Of a DNA stretch of 64,000 nt, positions 37,159 to 63,982 are shown in pieces; within the stretch, counting starts at the first letter, position 1; every line of letters begins with the position of its first letter. Position numbers and translations under genes: made by a program. Source of the stretch: Thiomicrospira sp. WB1. GTDB taxonomy: Bacteria > Pseudomonadota > Gammaproteobacteria > Thiomicrospirales > Thiomicrospiraceae. The stretch spans positions 1 to 64,000 of the forward strand of contig NZ_LQBN01000001.1 of NCBI RefSeq assembly GCF_001507535.1. The letters are read 5' to 3'. Below the pieces are notes generated by a model. That model saw only the letters and a program-made list of their open reading frames with translations. It was not told the DNA's origin and ran no database searches.

Positions 37159-39228
37159 TCACGCGGCTTTGATCCCGCTGTGACGCAGCAAGGCATCAAT
37201 TTGAGGTTCACGCCCGCGGAACTGCTTAAACAATGCCATCGGATCCACCGAACCTCCGGCGGCCAGAATGGTGTTTTTAAAACGCGCGCCCGTGTCCGGA
37301 TTCAAAATCCCGGTTTCTTCAAACAGGCTGAAGGCATCGCTTGAGAGCACTTCGGCCCATTTGTAGCTGTAATAGCCCGCGGCGTACCCCCCGGCAAAAA
37401 TGTGTGCAAAGCTGTGGGGAAAGCGATGATACGCCGGTGGCTTGACCACAGCGACCTGCTCGCGCACCTTGTTCAGATGCGCCAGAATGGCCTGACTGTC
37501 TTCGACCGGCTCGGCGGCATGCAACCCAAAATCAAACAGTGAAAATTCGAGCTGGCGCACCATCATCATGGCCGACTGAAACCCGCGACTATCACGCAGA
37601 CGCGTCAGCAGTTCATCAGGCAAGGTTTCCCCCGTGTCCACATGCGCCGTCATCAGGTCAATGCCTTCCCGTTCCCAACAGAAATTTTCCATAAACTGAG
37701 ACGGCAGCTCCACCGCATCCCAGGGCACGCCATTGATGCCGGAGACATCAAAATGTTCCATTTCGGTCAGCATGTGATGCAAACCGTGACCGAATTCGTG
37801 GAACAGGGTGGTGACCTCATCATGGGTCAGGCAAGAGGGTGCATCCCCTACCGGAGGCGTAAAATTACACACCAGATACGCCACCGGTACCTGTAACCCC
37901 ATTTCCGGATCCTGCCAGCGACTGATGGCCGAATCCATCCAGGCCCCGCCGCGTTTGTGTTCGCGTGCATACAGATCCAGATAAAACCCGGCTTTTAATT
38001 GATCGGCTTCGTCCACCAGCTCAAAATAGCGCACGTCCTCATGCCAGACAGAGACCCCGCTCTTTTCACGCACCCGCACGCCAAACAAGCGTTCGGTCAC
38101 CGCAAACAGGCCTTCGATCACTTTGATCACCGGAAAATAAGGTTTGAGCGCTTCTTTGGACAGATTCAGGGTGGCTTGTTTGTATTTTTCCGATGCATAG
38201 GCCACATCCCAGGGCTGAAATTCATCGATGCCCAGTTCGGTTTTGGCAAAAACGGTCAAATCGGCCAACTCTTTTTCTGCCTGAGGTTTGGAACGCGCGC
38301 CCAAATCCTGCAAAAATTGAAACACCGCATCGGTCGAACCGGCCATTTTGGTGGCCAACGACAATTCGGCATAAGACTCAAATCCGAGCAGTTGCGCTTT
38401 CTGGTGACGCAATTGCAGGATTTCCGGCATCACAGCGCTGTTATCGAATTCAGTGTTGTCCGCCTGATCCGAGGCACGCGTGGCAAACGCCCGATAGACT
38501 TCTTCTCGCAATGCACGGTTGTCGGCATAGGTCATCACCGCCAGATAGGACGGAATGTCCAGTGTCACCAACCAGCCCTGCTGGTCTTTTTGTGTGGCCA
38601 GTTGTGCCAACAGTCCCATCGACGCCTCGGGCAAGCCACTGAGTTCGCTTTCATCGGTGATCAGTTTTGACCAGGCCTGAGTGCCTTTGAGGACGTTGTT
38701 GCCGAACTCACTGCTCAATTGCGACAAACGCTGGGAAATCCGTTTGTATTCGCCCTGTTGCGCCTCGGGCAAATCAATCCCCGACAGTTTGAAATCACGC
38801 AAGGCGTCTTCGATCACCTTTTTCTGCGCCAGCGAATAATGGATGTATTCTTGCGAATTCGCCAGCTGGGTGAATTTATCAAACAAGCCTTTATTCTGTC
38901 CGATCTGCGTGCTGTAGTCGCTGACCATTTCCAGGCAGCCGGTGTAAGCCTCATGCCAGAGATCGGAATTTTTCACGCCATCCAGATGACTGACCGGCCC
39001 CCAGACACGTTCAAACCGATTGTGCAAGCGTTCTAACGGCACCACAAACGTCTCCCAGGTCGGATCGGCGGCATCCGCCACTAACGCGTCAATCGCTGCC
39101 AGATTTTCTGAAATCACCGTTTCCACCGCAGGGGCGATGTGTTCCACGTGAAACGACTCGAATTTGGGCAAACCGCTCACATCCAAGAGTGGGTTGGCAT
39201 CCGTTGTGTGCAATACCTGTGCTGTCAT
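37159..39228 (-). CDS. prlC: Oligopeptidase A (M3 metallopeptidase)
   Basis: 689 residues. Zinc-binding HEFGHGLHHML with the downstream Glu in SQFMENFCWE and the MSINGVPWDAVELPSQ-type loop (GINGVPWDAVELPSQF), plus RHQKAQLLGFESYAELSLATKMA, identify the thimet-like oligopeptidase family. It degrades short cytosolic peptides, including cleaved signal peptides. It contains a near-copy of the dispersed palindrome (TQAWSK) and a parS-like site close to the 5' end. Confidence 0.95.
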   Translation of the reverse strand: MTAQVLHTTDANPLLDVSGLPKFESFHVEHIAPAVETVISENLAAIDALVADAADPTWETFVVPLERLHNRFERVWGPVSHLDGVKNSDLWHEAYTGCLEMVSDYSTQIGQNKGLFDKFTQLANSQEYIHYSLAQKKVIEDALRDFKLSGIDLPEAQQGEYKRISQRLSQLSSEFGNNVLKGTQAWSKLITDESELSGLPEASMGLLAQLATQKDQQGWLVTLDIPSYLAVMTYADNRALREEVYRAFATRASDQADNTEFDNSAVMPEILQLRHQKAQLLGFESYAELSLATKMAGSTDAVFQFLQDLGARSKPQAEKELADLTVFAKTELGIDEFQPWDVAYASEKYKQATLNLSKEALKPYFPVIKVIEGLFAVTERLFGVRVREKSGVSVWHEDVRYFELVDEADQLKAGFYLDLYAREHKRGGAWMDSAISRWQDPEMGLQVPVAYLVCNFTPPVGDAPSCLTHDEVTTLFHEFGHGLHHMLTEMEHFDVSGINGVPWDAVELPSQFMENFCWEREGIDLMTAHVDTGETLPDELLTRLRDSRGFQSAMMMVRQLEFSLFDFGLHAAEPVEDSQAILAHLNKVREQVAVVKPPAYHRFPHSFAHIFAGGYAAGYYSYKWAEVLSSDAFSLFEETGILNPDTGARFKNTILAAGGSVDPMALFKQFRGREPQIDALLRHSGIKAA
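38665..38680. repeat. CCAGGCCTGG palindrome, near copy
   Basis: TTTTGA arm followed by CCAGGCCTGA (38671-38680), one core mismatch; inside prlC (TQAWSK). Confidence 0.6.
39141..39154. promoter_or_regulatory. parS-like site 5
   Basis: GTTCCACGTGAAAC. With flanks it matches the Bacillus-type parS TGTTCCACGTGAAACA at 15 of 16 positions, and the GTTTCACGTGAAAC core at 13 of 14. Inside the 5' part of prlC. Confidence 0.65.
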
Positions 39229-48920: not shown

Positions 48921-49841
48921 TTAATCGCTTTGACAGCGATCTGTACAGGGAATGTGACTGGATTGTAACGTTTTTTTAAAGGCGTTCAATGCATCCAGAT
49001 TGGGAAAACTTTTACGCCAGGCCAGAACCACGGTGCGTTTGGCATCTTTTTCAGCCAGGGGGAGATAAGTGAGTAATTCATCGCTGTTCTGACAAGCACT
49101 GCAAGGCAAAATCGTCACACCAGCACCTGAGGCCACCATATAACGAATGGTTTCCAGCGAACCGCCTTCCAATGTCTTTTGCAAAGACTGATCATTGGCA
49201 CGGGCCTGAGACAATAATGGGTAGGCATCAAAAATCTGATCGCGAAAACAGTGCCCGGCGCCCAAAAGCAACAGGGTTTCATTTTCCAAATCACTTAAAT
49301 CAATGGAGGCTTTTTCGGCCAAAGGGTGCTGTTTGGGCAGGGAAGCGTAAAAAGGTTCTTCATACAAAGGCAGGCACTCAATGTTGGGTTCATCAAAGGG
49401 CAGGGACACCAATACCGCATCCAACTCACCGGATTGCAGTTTTTTGGCCAATTCATAGGTGTAATTTTCTTCAATGGTCAGGCGGACCGATTGCTTAACT
49501 GCATGAAACGCTGAAATCACATGCGGCAATAAATAAGGCCCAATGGTATAAATGGCCCCGATCTTTAATTCGGCGGTTTGAGATTGCTCGGCTTGTGCCA
49601 GTTCTTTGATGGATTTGGCTTCCTGAAGCATTTTTTGAGCAATGGGCAGAATTTTTTCACCGATCGGCGTTAATAAGACATTCTGTTTACGTCGTTCGAA
49701 TAGCGTAACGTCGAGTTCGGTTTCCAGTTTTTTGATCGCGACACTGAGAGTGGGTTGAGACACAAAACATTGTTCCGATGCTTTTCGAAAGTGTTTTTGT
49801 TTGGCTAATTCACAAAAGTATTTGAGTTCATTCAGTGTCAT
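48921..49841 (-). CDS. OxyR-like LysR-family regulator
   Basis: 306 residues. N-terminal LysR helix-turn-helix (ELKYFCELAKQKHFRKASEQCFVSQPTLSVAIKKLE) and an OxyR-type effector domain (LLLLGAGHCFRDQIFDAYPLL, SLETIRYMVASGAGVTILP). Cys198 aligns with the peroxidatic Cys199 of E. coli OxyR, but the position of resolving Cys208 is Tyr207. Two other Cys lie at 247 and 250 (LPCSACQ). It probably senses peroxide or another thiol oxidant with altered chemistry. No catalase or peroxiredoxin gene is adjacent. Confidence 0.85.
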   Translation of the reverse strand: MTLNELKYFCELAKQKHFRKASEQCFVSQPTLSVAIKKLETELDVTLFERRKQNVLLTPIGEKILPIAQKMLQEAKSIKELAQAEQSQTAELKIGAIYTIGPYLLPHVISAFHAVKQSVRLTIEENYTYELAKKLQSGELDAVLVSLPFDEPNIECLPLYEEPFYASLPKQHPLAEKASIDLSDLENETLLLLGAGHCFRDQIFDAYPLLSQARANDQSLQKTLEGGSLETIRYMVASGAGVTILPCSACQNSDELLTYLPLAEKDAKRTVVLAWRKSFPNLDALNAFKKTLQSSHIPCTDRCQSD

Positions 49842-50189
49842 GATCAGCGTGTTCGTCTGTGGTTAAGGAAAAGATAAAGCTTGTTGTTATTACTGTTATG
49901 CACACCGTATTCCGTGCATAAGTCGGGTTTTGCTAAATGTATCATACGCTTGGCTTGTGTACACCCATGCGGGGAAAACGATGTAACGTTTTTGTATGCG
50001 CTGTGGGCCTTTTGTGAATAAGTCGGATGAAACGCAAACATGAGCTCAAACCTTCAAAGTTCTCCACAAAATTTTGCGATTATGCACAGGGCTTAAGCAT
50101 TCGGTCCATAGGATTATCCCGTTTTTATCCACACGTGACCAGACACGATTCATTGAACCGGTTGATGGGTCATGCCATCGCAGAAAGGG
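49842..50189. other. Candidate replication-origin-like region: cluster of DnaA boxes
   Basis: 348-bp non-coding gap between the oxyR-like start and the 3' end of the GGDEF-EAL gene. Four exact matches to TTWTNCACA: TTATGCACA at 49896-49904 and 50080-50088, TTATTCACA on the minus strand at 50013-50021, and TTATCCACA at 50125-50133. One-mismatch boxes lie at 49858-49866, 49913-49921 and 50060-50068. An AT-rich stretch lies at about 49866-49895. The oxyR promoter must also be here. No dnaA, dnaN or mnmG is adjacent, so an oriC call is tentative. Confidence 0.5.
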
Positions 50190-52235
50190 TCAGATTTCAA
50201 TCAAACGAAGAAAGTCGGATTGCTTGAGGGGTTTATGGAAGAAGTAGCCCTGACAGAGCTCACAGGCGTTTTCCAGGAGGAACTCGACCTGTTCCTGGGT
50301 TTCCACGCCTTCAGCGATCACATTGATGTTTAAGTGATCGGTCAGGTTAATGATGGTTTTGGCAATGGCCACGGCTTTGACTTGATTGGGCAGCTCATCC
50401 ACAAAGGATTTATCAATCTTAAGCTGATCGATGGGCAGGTTTTTCAAATAGCTCAAAGAAGAAAAACCAGTGCCGAAATCATCCAGTGAAATGTGGAACC
50501 CAAGTTCTTTCAATTGTTTGAGGACATAGATACTGTGAGTCAGATTTTCCAGGAACACCCCTTCGGTGATTTCCAGTTTGATCGATTCCGGACGCACGGC
50601 ATGGGTTTCCAACAGCGTTTCCATGGTCTGAACCAGTTTGGGGTCAAAGAAGTGTTTGGGACTCAGGTTAAGGGAAACCGTCAGCGTTTGATCCAGTTGG
50701 TGCTGTTCAATAAAGGCAAACACCGATTCAAACAGCCAGTTGGAAATGGGGATGATGGTCAGATTGTCTTCCGCCAGAGGGATGAAACGCGCCGGAGAAA
50801 TCAGCTCGCCCCGGAAAATCCAGCGTAACAGGACTTCGGCCCCCACGATTTTACCGGTTTTGGCTTCGATTTGAGGTTGCAGCAACCAGTAGAATTCGTT
50901 TTTGGCAACGGCATTTTCCAGACCTTCTTCCAGCAACAGGTCGTCTTTGACCTTGTTTTCCATTTCGGTTTCAAACAAGGTGACCTGGTTGCGACCGCTT
51001 TCTTTGGAAGCATACAAGGCAATGTCGGCACGGCGAATCACTTCATTGATGTTGAAATCACGCTGACCGTCAAACAGGTCAATGCCGATTGAGACCGAGG
51101 TTTTATGATAGAGATCATCCAGCTGATAGGGTTTCCCTAGGGCTTCGTGCAGGGTTTTGGCCAGTTTTTGCGAATGCAGACTGGCTTCATATAAAGTGTC
51201 CCCGATGTTTTCATAAATGATGACAAATTCATCCCCGCCAAACCGAAAAGCCTGTCCGTTCTTTTCCAGAATCTGGGTGATGCGGTTGGCGATTTTCTGT
51301 AAAAGCAGATCCCCCAGTTCATGACCGTAGGAATCATTGAGTTGTTTGAATTTGTCCACGTCCAGGAATAACAGAGCGGAAAAATAGCGGCCTTTTCGAG
51401 CCCGGTGGATGGCGCTGTTGAGTTCCTCTTCCAAAAGCGCTCGACTGCTCAGCCCAGTCAGCGTGTCGTTGTAAGCCAGTTTTTCAATTTCTCTCAAGTT
51501 GGCCTTGTTTTCCTGAAACTGCTGGTAAATTTTTTCTTCCATCCGATTGAAATTACGCATCAGACTGCCAATTTCATCGTTTTCGGTGTTCGCAAACGGA
51601 TTGACTGATTTTTCCGGATCGACTTGCTGGGTGGCTTCAATCAGTGTTTTGATCCGACGTGTGAGGTTATTGCCCAGAATCCAGGCAATGATGGCGCCGA
51701 TCAAAATCGCCACAAAAGTATAAATCAGACCTTCCTGAGTCAGATTGATCAGGTTTTTTTGCAGATGGCGGGTGCTCATGCCCACTTTGACATACCCAAT
51801 GGTGTCTTCGCCAATTTGAATGGGGGCGGTGGCATCGATGAGTTGACTGGCCTCGAGATAGCGAATTTTAACCGGATGAGTCGGGTCAATGCGTTGCAGA
51901 TTCTGCAGGTATTTGCCCACGGTGTTTTGGTTGGTATGCGCCACGATCAGGCCTTCCGGATTGAAAATCATGGCATAACGCAGATTTTCATAACTGGATT
52001 GGGACTGGATGACTTCCTGCAGACCGACCACATTATTGGAGAGCATCCATTCGGTGGTGTTGGTGGCGATGGTCTGAGCCAGGGAATGGGTTTGTGTGGT
52101 CAGCTGTTGGACCAGGAAATCGCGTTCTTTGTAGACCAGGTCAAAAATAAACACACTCATCATCAGGGCGTGCACAATCGTCACCCCCATGATCAGCTGG
52201 TGTTTAATCCGTTTTGGCCAGAGTCTGGTGAACAC
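50190..52235 (-). CDS. Membrane GGDEF-EAL c-di-GMP enzyme
   Basis: 681 residues, start GTG 52235, overlapping the stop of the PhnD-like gene by one base. Membrane segments near 12-32 and 172-192 enclose a periplasmic sensor (LAQTIATNTTEWMLSNNVVGLQEVIQSQ), then a HAMP-like linker. The GGDEF domain has RFGGDEFVII. The EAL domain reads EVLLRW in place of EAL-x-R-W but keeps DDFGTGFSSLSYLKNLPIDQLKIDKSF and AEGVE, so phosphodiesterase activity is plausible. Probably tuned by ligand binding to the co-translated PhnD-like protein. Confidence 0.92.
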   Translation of the reverse strand: MFTRLWPKRIKHQLIMGVTIVHALMMSVFIFDLVYKERDFLVQQLTTQTHSLAQTIATNTTEWMLSNNVVGLQEVIQSQSSYENLRYAMIFNPEGLIVAHTNQNTVGKYLQNLQRIDPTHPVKIRYLEASQLIDATAPIQIGEDTIGYVKVGMSTRHLQKNLINLTQEGLIYTFVAILIGAIIAWILGNNLTRRIKTLIEATQQVDPEKSVNPFANTENDEIGSLMRNFNRMEEKIYQQFQENKANLREIEKLAYNDTLTGLSSRALLEEELNSAIHRARKGRYFSALLFLDVDKFKQLNDSYGHELGDLLLQKIANRITQILEKNGQAFRFGGDEFVIIYENIGDTLYEASLHSQKLAKTLHEALGKPYQLDDLYHKTSVSIGIDLFDGQRDFNINEVIRRADIALYASKESGRNQVTLFETEMENKVKDDLLLEEGLENAVAKNEFYWLLQPQIEAKTGKIVGAEVLLRWIFRGELISPARFIPLAEDNLTIIPISNWLFESVFAFIEQHQLDQTLTVSLNLSPKHFFDPKLVQTMETLLETHAVRPESIKLEITEGVFLENLTHSIYVLKQLKELGFHISLDDFGTGFSSLSYLKNLPIDQLKIDKSFVDELPNQVKAVAIAKTIINLTDHLNINVIAEGVETQEQVEFLLENACELCQGYFFHKPLKQSDFLRLIEI

Positions 52236-60386: not shown

Positions 60387-61577
60387 ATGCCTGAAGAGCT
60401 TGCTTTCCACAGCAGAGTCTGCGGATCAGACCATTCTGACGCTGATATCGTTTTCATCCATGGCCTAACGGGAGATCCTGAAGAGACTTGGCAATCTGAA
60501 GAAACCGGTGAGTTCTGGCCTGAGTGGCTTTGCGACGATATTCCTAACGTGGCCGTCCATTCCCTGGGCTATCCAGTCAGTTTTTTTGGCAAGTGGGCAA
60601 AAAAGGAGATGAACCTCTACGAGCGAGCGGCCAATGTGCTCGAGGCCATGGTTGGCCGAGGAATTGGAGAAAGTCCGCTGGTTTTCGTATGCCATAGTCT
60701 TGGAGGGATTCTCGCCAAGCAGATTATCCGGACGGCATCTGATTCTGATGACGAAGACTGGAAGCAAATTGCCTATTCTCTCCGAATGGTTGTGTTCTTG
60801 GCTACGCCTCATAAAGGCTCGTCATTGGCGTCAGTTCTTCATGCTTTCATGCCGCATTTTTCCTCGCGTCATGTTAGTCTACTTACCGATGATTCTGGAG
60901 CATTGACTGAATTGAATCAGTATTATCGGAACTTCGCCAGTGGACATAGCGAGTTAAAAACGGTGGCCTTTGTCGAGACATTCAAGACTCAGAAAGCAGC
61001 GATAGTCGTTCCGAAAGATTCTGCCGACCCAGGGGTTCAAGGAACTCAGCCTATTCCTGTCGATAAGGATCATATCAATATCAGCAAGCCCAAGAACAAA
61101 GAGGATGTCGTCTATATGAGTTTGGAGCGTCGCATTTCCAAGATGCTCCCCAAAGCGACCGGCAGCGGCAATGGAGGGTTTCCTGCAGACGACTACGGCG
61201 AACAATCCGAAGATGACCGACGGGACTTGTTACAAAAGCTAATTGACGCGGGGAGGCAGCATGAATACTCAAACGCTAACCGCTACCAAAACAGTTTCGC
61301 TCGTAACTACGCGAAACTGGGTCTTTATACAGAAGAACGCGATCGGAACGACGGCCTGCTTTCCGAAGTAGAACAGCATTTCATGACCCACATCTACCAC
61401 CCTCTAATTTGCAAGGGTGCGCCCGATGGCAGTGTGCAAGATGCCTTGCAAGAAAAAGTCATTAACCCGATCTGGTCTCGGCACCAGCATGTCCGCAATT
61501 TTTCTCACAAAACGGTCCTCGCTGCCTTGTACTTTTTGACGGAGCAGTGCTACATCCGTTGGGACCCGGAACAATGA
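60387..61577 (+). CDS. SERAC1-like alpha/beta hydrolase with C-terminal partner domain (ABC-3C effector candidate)
   Basis: 396 residues. Residues 18-235 are an alpha/beta hydrolase of the SERAC1/PGAP1-like type: VFIHGLTGDPEETWQ, nucleophile Ser104 in FVCHSLGGILAKQ, FLATPHKGSSLA, and a probable catalytic His229 in KDHINISKP. Residues about 265-396 form a helical domain with no hydrolase features (YQNSFARNYAKLGLYTEERDRNDGLLSEVEQHFMTHIYHPLI, then FSHKTVLAALYFLTEQCYIRWDPEQ). This could be the CTD that couples ABC-three-component effectors to the ATPase. Predicted role: esterase or lipase effector. The stop overlaps the next start (ATGA). Confidence 0.8.
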   Translation: MPEELAFHSRVCGSDHSDADIVFIHGLTGDPEETWQSEETGEFWPEWLCDDIPNVAVHSLGYPVSFFGKWAKKEMNLYERAANVLEAMVGRGIGESPLVFVCHSLGGILAKQIIRTASDSDDEDWKQIAYSLRMVVFLATPHKGSSLASVLHAFMPHFSSRHVSLLTDDSGALTELNQYYRNFASGHSELKTVAFVETFKTQKAAIVVPKDSADPGVQGTQPIPVDKDHINISKPKNKEDVVYMSLERRISKMLPKATGSGNGGFPADDYGEQSEDDRRDLLQKLIDAGRQHEYSNANRYQNSFARNYAKLGLYTEERDRNDGLLSEVEQHFMTHIYHPLICKGAPDGSVQDALQEKVINPIWSRHQHVRNFSHKTVLAALYFLTEQCYIRWDPEQ

Positions 61578-62080
61578 TGACTAGGATCTGGTATCCGCAG
61601 CTTGATATTTACCACGCGATTCGGCGGATTGCGGCGTTGCTGTATTTTTGGGAGAAGAAGACGGCCCCTTTGGAGCGTCTGTACATCTTCGATTTCTACT
61701 TCGCCAATCCACCGCTTCTGCATAACGTACACATGCCTGCCGATGTTCGAGAAACATTTAAAGAGCTGGTGATTCAGAAGCCCGAAAAAACGTTCTTAAC
61801 GTACCCGACGCCATCCATTCTCTTTCACAAAATGGAGTCAATTCAAAAGAAAGCCGTTCAAGCCATGGTGGCCAAAAACCTCTTGAGCTCGGAGGCACTC
61901 CATAAAGGGAAGGCTTCGCTATCCAGTCTCGGTGAAGAGTTCGTAGAATCTCGCGTTGTGGGTAGGCTTTCTGAGAAAGACGCCAAGTTGATCGAGTTCT
62001 TGGCAAGAAGCTTCAGTCAAGTCGCCGAAGGAGATTCGGTAGATCTGCGAAAAAGAACCGGATTGAGAAGGATGGTTTAA
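61574..62080 (+). CDS. Small middle component of an ABC-three-component-like system
   Basis: 168 residues from ATG 61574, overlapping the upstream stop by 4 bp. Mostly helical: YHAIRRIAALLYFWEKKTAPLERLYIFDFYFANPPLLH, then LTYPTPSILFHKMESIQKKAVQAMVAKNLL, then KASLSSLGEEFVESRVVGRLSEKDAKLIEFLARSF. No enzymatic motif. Size, helical/winged-helix look and the position between a hydrolase-CTD gene and an SMC-like ATPase match the 'middle component' of ABC-3C predicted conflict systems. Which middle-component family it belongs to cannot be decided by eye. Confidence 0.7.
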   Translation: MMTRIWYPQLDIYHAIRRIAALLYFWEKKTAPLERLYIFDFYFANPPLLHNVHMPADVRETFKELVIQKPEKTFLTYPTPSILFHKMESIQKKAVQAMVAKNLLSSEALHKGKASLSSLGEEFVESRVVGRLSEKDAKLIEFLARSFSQVAEGDSVDLRKRTGLRRMV

Positions 62081-62083
62081 TAC

Positions 62084-63982
62084 ATGAATTGCCCGCGATT
62101 CACACTCAACAGACTACGCGTATTGCGTCATGGCCATGTTGCCTATGACCAAGAGTTTCATGAAGGCGTCAACATTATCCGTGGCGAGAATGGATCGGGA
62201 AAATCGACGATCGCTGACTTCATCTTCTACGCACTCGGGGGTGAGTTTGATTCTTGGAAGGAGGCTGCCGCACGCTGCGACGAGGTGCAGGCAGAGGTGG
62301 TTACAAACCATGGAAAGCTAACTCTCATAAGGGAAATCGGAAACAAGACCACGCCCATCAAAGTATTTTTTGGCGCATTTGAACAAGCGGAAAACCATGC
62401 GTTGGCTGGCTGGGAAACTTTCCCTATTCGAAGATCCGAGAAACGCGAGAGCTTTTCTCAAGTTCTGTTTCGCTCACTTAATATTCCTGAGGCTCAAAGT
62501 GTCGGTGCCTCGAATATTACAATGCATCAAGTCATGCGCCTGTTGTACTCAGATCAAAGGACTCCCTCGACTCGGCTGTTCCGGTTTGAGTCTTTTGACA
62601 GGCTAGATATTCGCGAAGCGGTTGGTGATCTGATCTGCGGAATTAGCGGCTATGAGGTCTATGAAATCAGCCTAAAGCTCCGGGACTTGGATGCCGAGTT
62701 CGCAAAGGTGAGCCAGAGGCTGACGTCACTAATTCAGGCGTTACCTCATAACGTTGATCTTAATCAGCCGGACAAAATCCATAGCCAATGCCGTCAATTA
62801 GATGAAAAAAAGTCGGTGGCATATCAAGAGATTGAAAATGTTGACTCTTTGGTGGACCAAGGTTACTCCAAAGACTTTCTGAAGGAACGGCAATCGGCAC
62901 AGCAAAGCTTGGTTAAGAAGAAGAGAGTGATGGCCTCCTTAGAGGACTCCATTACGAAACATGAGCTGGAGTTAACAGAGCTCACAAAGTATCAAAAATT
63001 TCTCGCAGAACAGGTTGAGCAAGTTAAAGTCGCCGAGAGCACCTTTCAGGCAATCGGTGCAATTGAATTTACCCGTTGTCCCGCGTGCTTGTCGCATCTT
63101 CAGCCAGTATCCGACCCAAATGTCTGCAATGTCTGCGGGCAACATACTGATCCTGAGAAAGAAAAATCGAAGTACAACCAGATTCGGCTTGATCTTGAAA
63201 TTCAATTGCGCGAGTCAAAACAACTTTTCTCAGAACATGAGGCAAGACTCTCCAAGGATCGCGTCGAACTTCGCAGGGTTAAAGGGAGCTATTCGAAAAG
63301 CCTATCCGAGTACTCGACCAAATTTGACCTGAGCTCTTCGCCGCGAGACGCCTTCCTGGCAGAGCGCTATCAGCGTATCGGACAGATTGATCAAGAACTC
63401 ACCCACCTGACAGGTATGTTGTCTGTTGCGGAAGAAGTTCAATCGCTATCTAATCGTAAGCAGGAACTGCAAGGACAAATCACGGACCTTTCGGATCGCC
63501 GAAAAGTGCTAGAACGTCGAGCGCAAAAAAGACGGAGTAAGGCGCTTAATGCTGTTTCTGAATGGGGGCGATTGTTGCTTAGAAGCGACCTCGATCGACA
63601 GCCCGAGTTCGAGAACCCAGAGCTCGTTGAGCTCAATTTCCGGGATGATGCAATGTTCGTCGATGGGCAAATGAATTTTGCAGAAAGCAGCAACGTCTTC
63701 CTTAAGAACACAGCAATTTTCAGCCTGTTCATGGCTGCTGGTAACGATGAGCTATTCAACCATCCACGATTCATTTTGCTCGACAACGTCGAGGACAAGG
63801 GGATGGAGGTTGAGAGAAGTCACTTGTTCCAGCGCCTGATCGTCGAACATTCGACCGAACTACGTAAACGCCACCAGGTCATCTATACCACATCAATGAT
63901 GAACCCCGACCTAGAACTCGATGACTATGTCATTGGGCCACACTATACGCACGATAAACGAACGCTCAGTCTCAAAAGTTAA
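62084..63982 (+). CDS. SMC/Rad50-like ABC ATPase with zinc hook (ABC-3C ATPase candidate)
   Basis: 632 residues, starting 3 bp after the middle gene. Residues 28-50: IIRGENGSGKSTIADFIFYALGG (Walker A). Two coiled-coil arms (about 200-330 and 360-500) flank a zinc site with Cys332/335 and Cys348/351 (CPAC and CNVC). The C-terminal lobe has a Walker B-like FILLDNVEDKGME (Asp567, with Asn where a catalytic Glu usually follows) and VIYTTSMM where SMC proteins have a switch His. Likely a sensor or motor that controls the hydrolase. Complete within the window. Confidence 0.85.
   Translation: MNCPRFTLNRLRVLRHGHVAYDQEFHEGVNIIRGENGSGKSTIADFIFYALGGEFDSWKEAAARCDEVQAEVVTNHGKLTLIREIGNKTTPIKVFFGAFEQAENHALAGWETFPIRRSEKRESFSQVLFRSLNIPEAQSVGASNITMHQVMRLLYSDQRTPSTRLFRFESFDRLDIREAVGDLICGISGYEVYEISLKLRDLDAEFAKVSQRLTSLIQALPHNVDLNQPDKIHSQCRQLDEKKSVAYQEIENVDSLVDQGYSKDFLKERQSAQQSLVKKKRVMASLEDSITKHELELTELTKYQKFLAEQVEQVKVAESTFQAIGAIEFTRCPACLSHLQPVSDPNVCNVCGQHTDPEKEKSKYNQIRLDLEIQLRESKQLFSEHEARLSKDRVELRRVKGSYSKSLSEYSTKFDLSSSPRDAFLAERYQRIGQIDQELTHLTGMLSVAEEVQSLSNRKQELQGQITDLSDRRKVLERRAQKRRSKALNAVSEWGRLLLRSDLDRQPEFENPELVELNFRDDAMFVDGQMNFAESSNVFLKNTAIFSLFMAAGNDELFNHPRFILLDNVEDKGMEVERSHLFQRLIVEHSTELRKRHQVIYTTSMMNPDLELDDYVIGPHYTHDKRTLSLKS

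Follow-up and report, generated by a model that had tools for sequence, protein, structure and literature searches.

The chromosomal origin of E. coli, oriC, sits away from dnaA, between mnmG and mioC, and the gene on the side of its AT-rich unwinding element (DUE), mnmG, is transcribed away from the origin. In the E. coli genome (NC_000913), one strand of oriC reads TTGAT, 19 nt, TTATCCACA, 14 nt and TAATAAGA, and the elements follow one another in the order DUE, box R1, IHF site, boxes of the same direction and boxes of the opposite direction. Loci of the datA/DARS type combine DnaA boxes with an IHF site, have no DUE and lie away from the GC skew minimum. In PMC10316083, E. coli oriC is described as two halves with opposed box directions, and the motifs TTGT and TTATT are described as binding E. 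coli DnaA. PMC8287927 describes a basal unwinding system of the B. subtilis type, composed of a DnaA box, a spacer of 13–14 nt and a 3-nt-periodic element.

The present study deals with the first 64,000 bp of contig NZ_LQBN01000001.1 (positions 1–64,000) of Thiomicrospira sp. WB1, hereafter the window; the genome is labelled G000. The gap at 49842–50189, flanked by a gene of an OxyR-like LysR regulator and by the end of a sCache-GGDEF-EAL gene, is very probably the chromosomal replication origin (oriC), the core of which would have moved from the place between dnaA and dnaN in an ancestor of the family (the Thiomicrospira/Thiomicrorhabdus group). This reading is supported by anatomy, conservation, skew and homology, as far as these can be judged from sequence. 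It seems that the mechanism is ordinary (DnaA, IHF, DUE opening) and the place is unusual. No description of an oxyR-side origin was found in the literature searched, which covered neither the T. crunogena genome paper nor the DoriC entries.

Anatomy of the gap beside the oxyR-like gene

The dense cluster of DnaA boxes reported at 49858–50133 by the initial annotation was confirmed, and comprises four exact matches to TTWTNCACA and three boxes with one mismatch (Table 1). The excess is local: two further exact matches lie elsewhere in the window, so that six were found in the whole 64 kb against 5.03 expected. Exact TTATNCACA occurs at 48 places in the 2,279,450 bp of the genome, and therefore 0.006 would be expected in 276 bp; among the genome-wide matches listed, no other trio lies within 300 bp. 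The Poisson probability of at least four exact boxes in 276 bp is about 5e-11, a value for one given stretch that is uncorrected for scanning. In the 144 kb of G000 that were scored for box clusters, the gap reached 11 and the runner-up, upstream of dnaA, 4, and no rival 300-bp stretch came near the box density of the gap. The window contains no tRNA or tmRNA genes. The initial annotation was also right in calling the neighbouring gene oxyR-like, as the best NCBIfam match of its product is OxyR (E 2.6e-65), though below the cut-off (221 against 329 bits). The AT-rich stretch that it had placed beside the boxes is present, but is modest only, with a GC content of 0.37 in 49842–49898, 0.44 in the whole gap and 0.54 in the window.

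Table 1. Features of the window that bear on the putative origin; positions are those of the window.
Feature	Position	Strand	Basis and remarks
OxyR-like LysR regulator	48921..49841	-	ORF; HTH_1 and LysR_substrate domains; transcription leads away from the DUE end of the putative origin
Putative AT-rich DUE, GC 0.37	49842..49898		Coincides with the AT-rich stretch that precedes oxyR in the 30-locus alignment
One-mismatch DnaA box TTAACCACA	49858..49866	-	On the DUE side; most relatives have no box at that column (alignment, by eye)
3-nt-periodic T-rich repeat TTGTTGTTATTACTGTTA	49881..49898	+	TTGT/TTATT motifs; complementary A every 3 nt in 30 aligned loci
Exact DnaA box TTATGCACA	49896..49904	+	TTWTNCACA search; overlaps the T-rich repeat
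R1-like DnaA box TTATGCACG	49913..49921	-	One mismatch to TTATNCACA; triplet repeat 14 nt away, as in E. coli
IHF-like site CAAGCGTATGATA	49940..49952	-	One mismatch to the consensus YAANNNNTTGATW; R1-like box 19 nt away, as in E. coli
Degenerate box GTGTACACA at the R5M-like place	49956..49964	-	Weak here; TTANNCACA-like in many relatives
Exact DnaA box TTATTCACA	50013..50021	-	Oriented like the R1-like box; forms the conserved inverted pair with the box at 50060
One-mismatch box TTCTCCACA	50060..50068	+	Second arm of the inverted pair; step 47 bp here, 36 bp in 22/30 loci
Exact DnaA box TTATGCACA	50080..50088	+	TTWTNCACA search; opposite direction to the R1-like box
Exact DnaA box TTATCCACA	50125..50133	+	TTWTNCACA search; opposite direction to the R1-like box
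sCache-GGDEF-EAL gene	50190..52235	-	ORF and domains; gene end is the other boundary of the putative origin
Nearest parS-like site, one mismatch	39141..39154		Motif search
Other parS-like sites in the window	9419, 19403, 24825, 34688		Motif search

Reading from the oxyR-like gene, the gap presents the putative DUE with TTN repeats, the R1-like box, the IHF-like site, boxes of the same direction and boxes of the opposite direction, which is the order of E. coli oriC. The names R1 and R5M are used here for boxes of the gap by analogy with E. coli, and YAANNNNTTGATW serves as the IHF consensus. Outward from the DUE, the box directions are minus at 49913, 49956 (the degenerate box) and 50013, and plus at 50060, 50080 and 50125, a pattern resembling the opposed halves of E. 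coli oriC; the DUE side carries two extra boxes, at 49858 (-) and 49896 (+). The 14-nt and 19-nt spacings of E. coli oriC are also those of the oxyR-side core. The arrangement corresponds to an E. coli-type left half (DUE-R1-IHF-R5M) in the way in which DUE, R1 and an IHF site predicted from its consensus are ordered and spaced. By its sequence, the stretch beside the R1-like box would serve as an unwinding element carrying DnaA single-strand motifs, moderately AT-rich in G000.

This geometry recurs in 30 aligned loci of the family. Counting from the R1-like box (0), TTAT stands at 0–3 in 27 loci, the IHF-like consensus lies at -31 to -20 in 26 (one mismatch allowed), and the ACA end of the degenerate box falls at -37 to -35 in 28; the 19 nt between the IHF motif and the R1-like box are free of gaps in the alignment. 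On the other side of the box, an A recurs at 24, 27, 30, 33, 36 and 39 (30, 25, 30, 26, 30 and 29 of the 30 loci, respectively), and a realignment gave a spacer of 13 or 14 nt between box and repeat. Several details differ from E. coli oriC. The distance between R5M-like box and IHF site is shorter in the family by roughly one helical turn, the GATC-bearing 13-mers of E. coli were not seen in the family DUE (both by eye), an inverted box pair 36 bp apart is typical of the family and unlike E. coli oriC, and the neighbouring genes are not mnmG and mioC.

The box, the spacer of 13–14 nt and the 3-nt-periodic element of the B. subtilis-type basal unwinding system are also found in the oxyR-side core. 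DnaA-trios were sought as at least three 3'-GAT-5'-like trios within 16 nt of the box with the middle A on the canonical strand, which we infer from T. maritima sequences. The 3-nt period is clear in the family loci, but the recurring A lies on the complementary strand, and only the box-proximal TTATTAG of some relatives fits (by eye). A reading of the periodic A as DnaA-trios was dropped, since T. maritima sequences and E. coli put the A on the other strand; the element is therefore described as TTN repeats of the T-rich strand. It seems that this strand fits the E. coli motif TT[G/A]T(T) better than it fits DnaA-trios.

Conservation in the family and likeness to dnaA-dnaN origins

The 700 bp upstream of oxyR contain at least one exact box in 29 of the 30 family loci, and at least two in 24. 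The core was directly upstream of oxyR in all 40 loci read (the 30 aligned loci and ten profile matches), and the place beside oxyR is constant in six of the seven genera searched. The inverted pair TGTGNATAA-N27-TTATNCACA is present as a single copy in 29 of the 62 family genomes, and its reversed control has zero occurrences in the same 62. The pair adjoins the profile match described below in 28 of the 29 genomes; in the remaining one, G057, pair and match are on separate contigs. G000 has no exact pair. With one mismatch allowed per box, the 36-bp step of the pair is found in 22 of the 30 loci, and in G000 the step is 47 bp.

The cores of the 30 aligned family loci were turned into a sequence-only profile of 106 positions; its E-values are rough because the calibration was shortened. 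A single strong match (E ≤ 5.1e-7) was found in 51 of the 62 family genomes, 30 of which had supplied the training sequences, a distribution in keeping with one conserved core per chromosome. Ten of the 21 untrained matches were examined, and all ten lay directly upstream of oxyR, on the oxyR strand. The 11 family genomes with no strong match are four g2 and seven g3 assemblies of 79–94% completeness. Weak matches are present in three of the four g2 genomes (E 1.5e-4, 0.008 and 0.034), two of them upstream of a permease-like gene and not of oxyR (L333, AEC family; L332, by eye) and the third at a contig end. The g2 permease-like gene is followed by an NlpC-like gene (by eye) and mlaA, which also follows oxyR in the window.

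Of 17 further oxyR matches, 15 were read (four of g2 and eleven of other families), and no cluster and at most one exact box were found in the 500 bp upstream (290 bp in one case). The core is present at five of 80 named oxyR loci, namely those of Thiomicrorhabdus heinhorstiae, placed in Piscirickettsiaceae by NCBI, Thiomicrospira sp. ALE5 and three MAGs called Thiomicrospira, Thiomicrorhabdus and Thiotrichales. Three of the five probably duplicate family genomes already searched and would not be independent. The core is absent from the other 75 named loci, among which L182 has no DNA upstream of oxyR.

In a search of 274 genomes of the class, the profile had a match with E ≤ 0.01 in 94, three of them family members, and none in 180. 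The 27 best non-family loci were read, and so was a second match in G308; a further 64 non-family genomes have weaker matches. Among these best 27, the match lies between dnaA and dnaN in 22; the other five are beside dnaN (L317), between rpmH and dnaA with an extra frame between (L304), before rpmH (L327) and elsewhere (L320, L325). The dnaN strand is the match strand in all 23 loci with dnaN. A profile made from oxyR-side cores thus finds the dnaA-dnaN origins of other Gammaproteobacteria in the same orientation, with the DUE towards dnaN. In the family, oxyR takes the place of dnaN, at 20–98 kb from dnaA in 17 genomes (contigs beginning at dnaA being taken as circular). E. coli oriC matches the profile weakly (12.7 bits, E 0.006). 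Since the profile finds dnaA-dnaN origins elsewhere in the class, the ordinary origin core of the class seems to have been moved to oxyR in the family. The resemblance suggests that the oxyR-side core is homologous to the dnaA-dnaN origin of other Gammaproteobacteria.

In two other families, too, an origin core seems to lie away from dnaA, at 11 kb in L325 (G308, C1 3407968) and 25 kb in L320 (G262, C9 99849). A local skew minimum lies near the match and not at dnaA in both genomes, at 0.6 kb in G308 and at 3.7 kb in G262, the latter from 54 kb only. A second, weaker match in G308 lies downstream of dnaA (C1 3396309, E 0.0049), and this genome perhaps represents an intermediate state.

GC skew, the boxes upstream of dnaA and other readings of the gap

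GC skew in the window is negative over roughly the first 40 kb and mostly positive beyond, and all 20 stretches sampled at 64–980 kb of the G000 contig are positive, including those at dnaA (128 kb) and mnmG (170 kb). The cumulative minimum lies 0.1–6.5 kb from the oxyR start in seven of eight genomes (G010 0.1, G033 0.8, G013 1.1, G018 1.2, G032 1.9, G026 4.6 and G000 6.5 kb) and 15–111 kb from dnaA in all eight. G005 is a weak case, with the minimum at 22.5 kb and a cumulative skew nearly flat between it and oxyR (-2402 against -2275). The gap cannot be singled out by skew alone, because the minimum is 6.5 kb off in G000 and 22.5 kb off in G005, its nearest relative. Of the nine parS-like sites of the genome (at most one mismatch), six are within 41 kb of the gap, at 9–69 kb of the contig, and the remaining ones are at 208 kb and on contig C4; the nearest is 10.7 kb away, which bears out the distance of about 11 kb noted earlier. 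The initial annotation had proposed an oriC at an unusual location, to be given up if the skew minimum and a classic oriC lay elsewhere. The sign change is near the gap and not at dnaA or mnmG, the dnaA-dnaN gap of G000 (about 105 bp) contains no match to the origin profile, and the proposal gains support from the skew, the DUE/IHF/R1 geometry and the likeness to dnaA-dnaN origins.

The reading that survives best beside this one puts the origin at dnaA and makes the oxyR gap a secondary DnaA-binding region. Upstream of dnaA, boxes TTATCCACA, TTATCCACA and TTATTCACA form a row of uniform direction, with steps of 24 and 30 bp, in seven of 11 family genomes. G010 has the same steps and another last box, G033 has steps of 25 and 30 bp, and G000 (at C1 about 128970–129010, outside the window) and G005 have the first two exact boxes only. 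This conserved cluster scores higher than the oxyR gap in five of seven genomes, but not in G000. Its boxes, however, all point one way, and the last runs into the -10-like GGTATAAT or a one-base variant in eight of the 11 (by eye). Among the 11 genomes, the origin profile matches near it in G033 only, and weakly (E 0.029; 0.0016 in a smaller search), and the skew around dnaA is of one sign in all eight genomes (4- or 5-kb windows; a 20-kb stretch in G000). An origin at dnaA is accordingly rated very improbable. The arrangement likely represents an autoregulated dnaA promoter, and may retain part of an earlier origin located there.

A DnaA-titration site, as put forward earlier, or a reactivation site, both of the datA/DARS type, would bind many DnaA molecules together with IHF and not open, and would show a box cluster and an IHF-like site as found here. 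The suggestion fails to explain the conserved DUE and TTN repeat at a fixed distance from the R1-like box, the IHF/R1 geometry, the skew minimum nearby and the likeness to dnaA-dnaN origins; unlike datA/DARS, the gap has a putative DUE and lies near that minimum. We consider this reading still less probable than an origin at dnaA.

It is scarcely credible that the gap is a DnaA-regulated promoter of the oxyR-like gene and nothing else, as had also been suggested. The constant position of the core upstream of oxyR is what such a promoter would require, but two of the three weak g2 matches precede a permease gene, the core precedes dnaN in other families, and the skew and the DUE/IHF/R1 geometry are left unexplained. 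DnaA control of oxyR may be a side effect of the origin. A chance cluster in an AT-richer gap, for which the shortness of the motif speaks and nothing more, is refuted by the conservation of the boxes upstream of oxyR (29 and 24 of the 30 loci) and has the Poisson probability given above against it, so that its likelihood is practically nil.

Proposed working of the putative origin and its neighbourhood

With the gap taken as oriC, DnaA would fill two box arrays pointing towards each other, with an IHF-induced bend separating the R1-like box from the box that follows. The filament of DnaA would then capture the T-rich strand of the TTN repeats beside oxyR and open the DUE, where the helicase would be loaded, and two forks would depart in both directions. 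The core would have moved from dnaA-dnaN to oxyR in the ancestor of the family, a direction that we infer.

The gene on the DUE side reads away from the core in all 40 oxyR loci, in all 23 dnaN loci and, as mnmG, in E. coli; the same holds for the permease-like gene of two g2 loci, rpmH in L327 and the neighbours in L320 and L325. These amount to about five independent moves, and the rule is therefore suggestive only. An extension of it, offered as a doubtful speculation, is that relocation always lands the DUE against an away-reading promoter, and that in this family the promoter of an OxyR-like regulator having lost its resolving cysteine would feed transcription-driven negative supercoiling to the DUE, so that initiation would be redox-tuned.

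The origin of the family would be placed where standard practice does not look. Of the 16 relatives with a located dnaA, ten (G002, G008, G010, G013, G015, G018, G022, G030, G031 and G058) have contigs numbered from a point no more than 1 kb from dnaA, the oxyR site being 29–98 kb off, and ori-to-ter measures counted from base 1 would therefore be offset. The family would also provide an example of an origin gone from dnaA with a similar core at both ends, and the profile points to two further moved origins, in the families of G308 and G262. How and why origins leave dnaA thereby becomes testable by comparison.

Two observations concern the neighbouring genes. At the position of the resolving cysteine, which we take to be C208 of E. 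coli OxyR, the OxyR-like regulator (window and L013–L042) has Tyr or Phe in all 28 family loci with the motif, the motif not being found in two of the 30; in the comparison loci L136–L215, some of which are family members, Cys is present in 73 of the 79 with the motif. At 60387–63982, a gene with an ABC-three-component C-terminal domain CTD9 and a serine-esterase-like domain is followed by an AAA/SMC-like gene, and the two possibly make up an ABC-3C defence system beside the putative origin.
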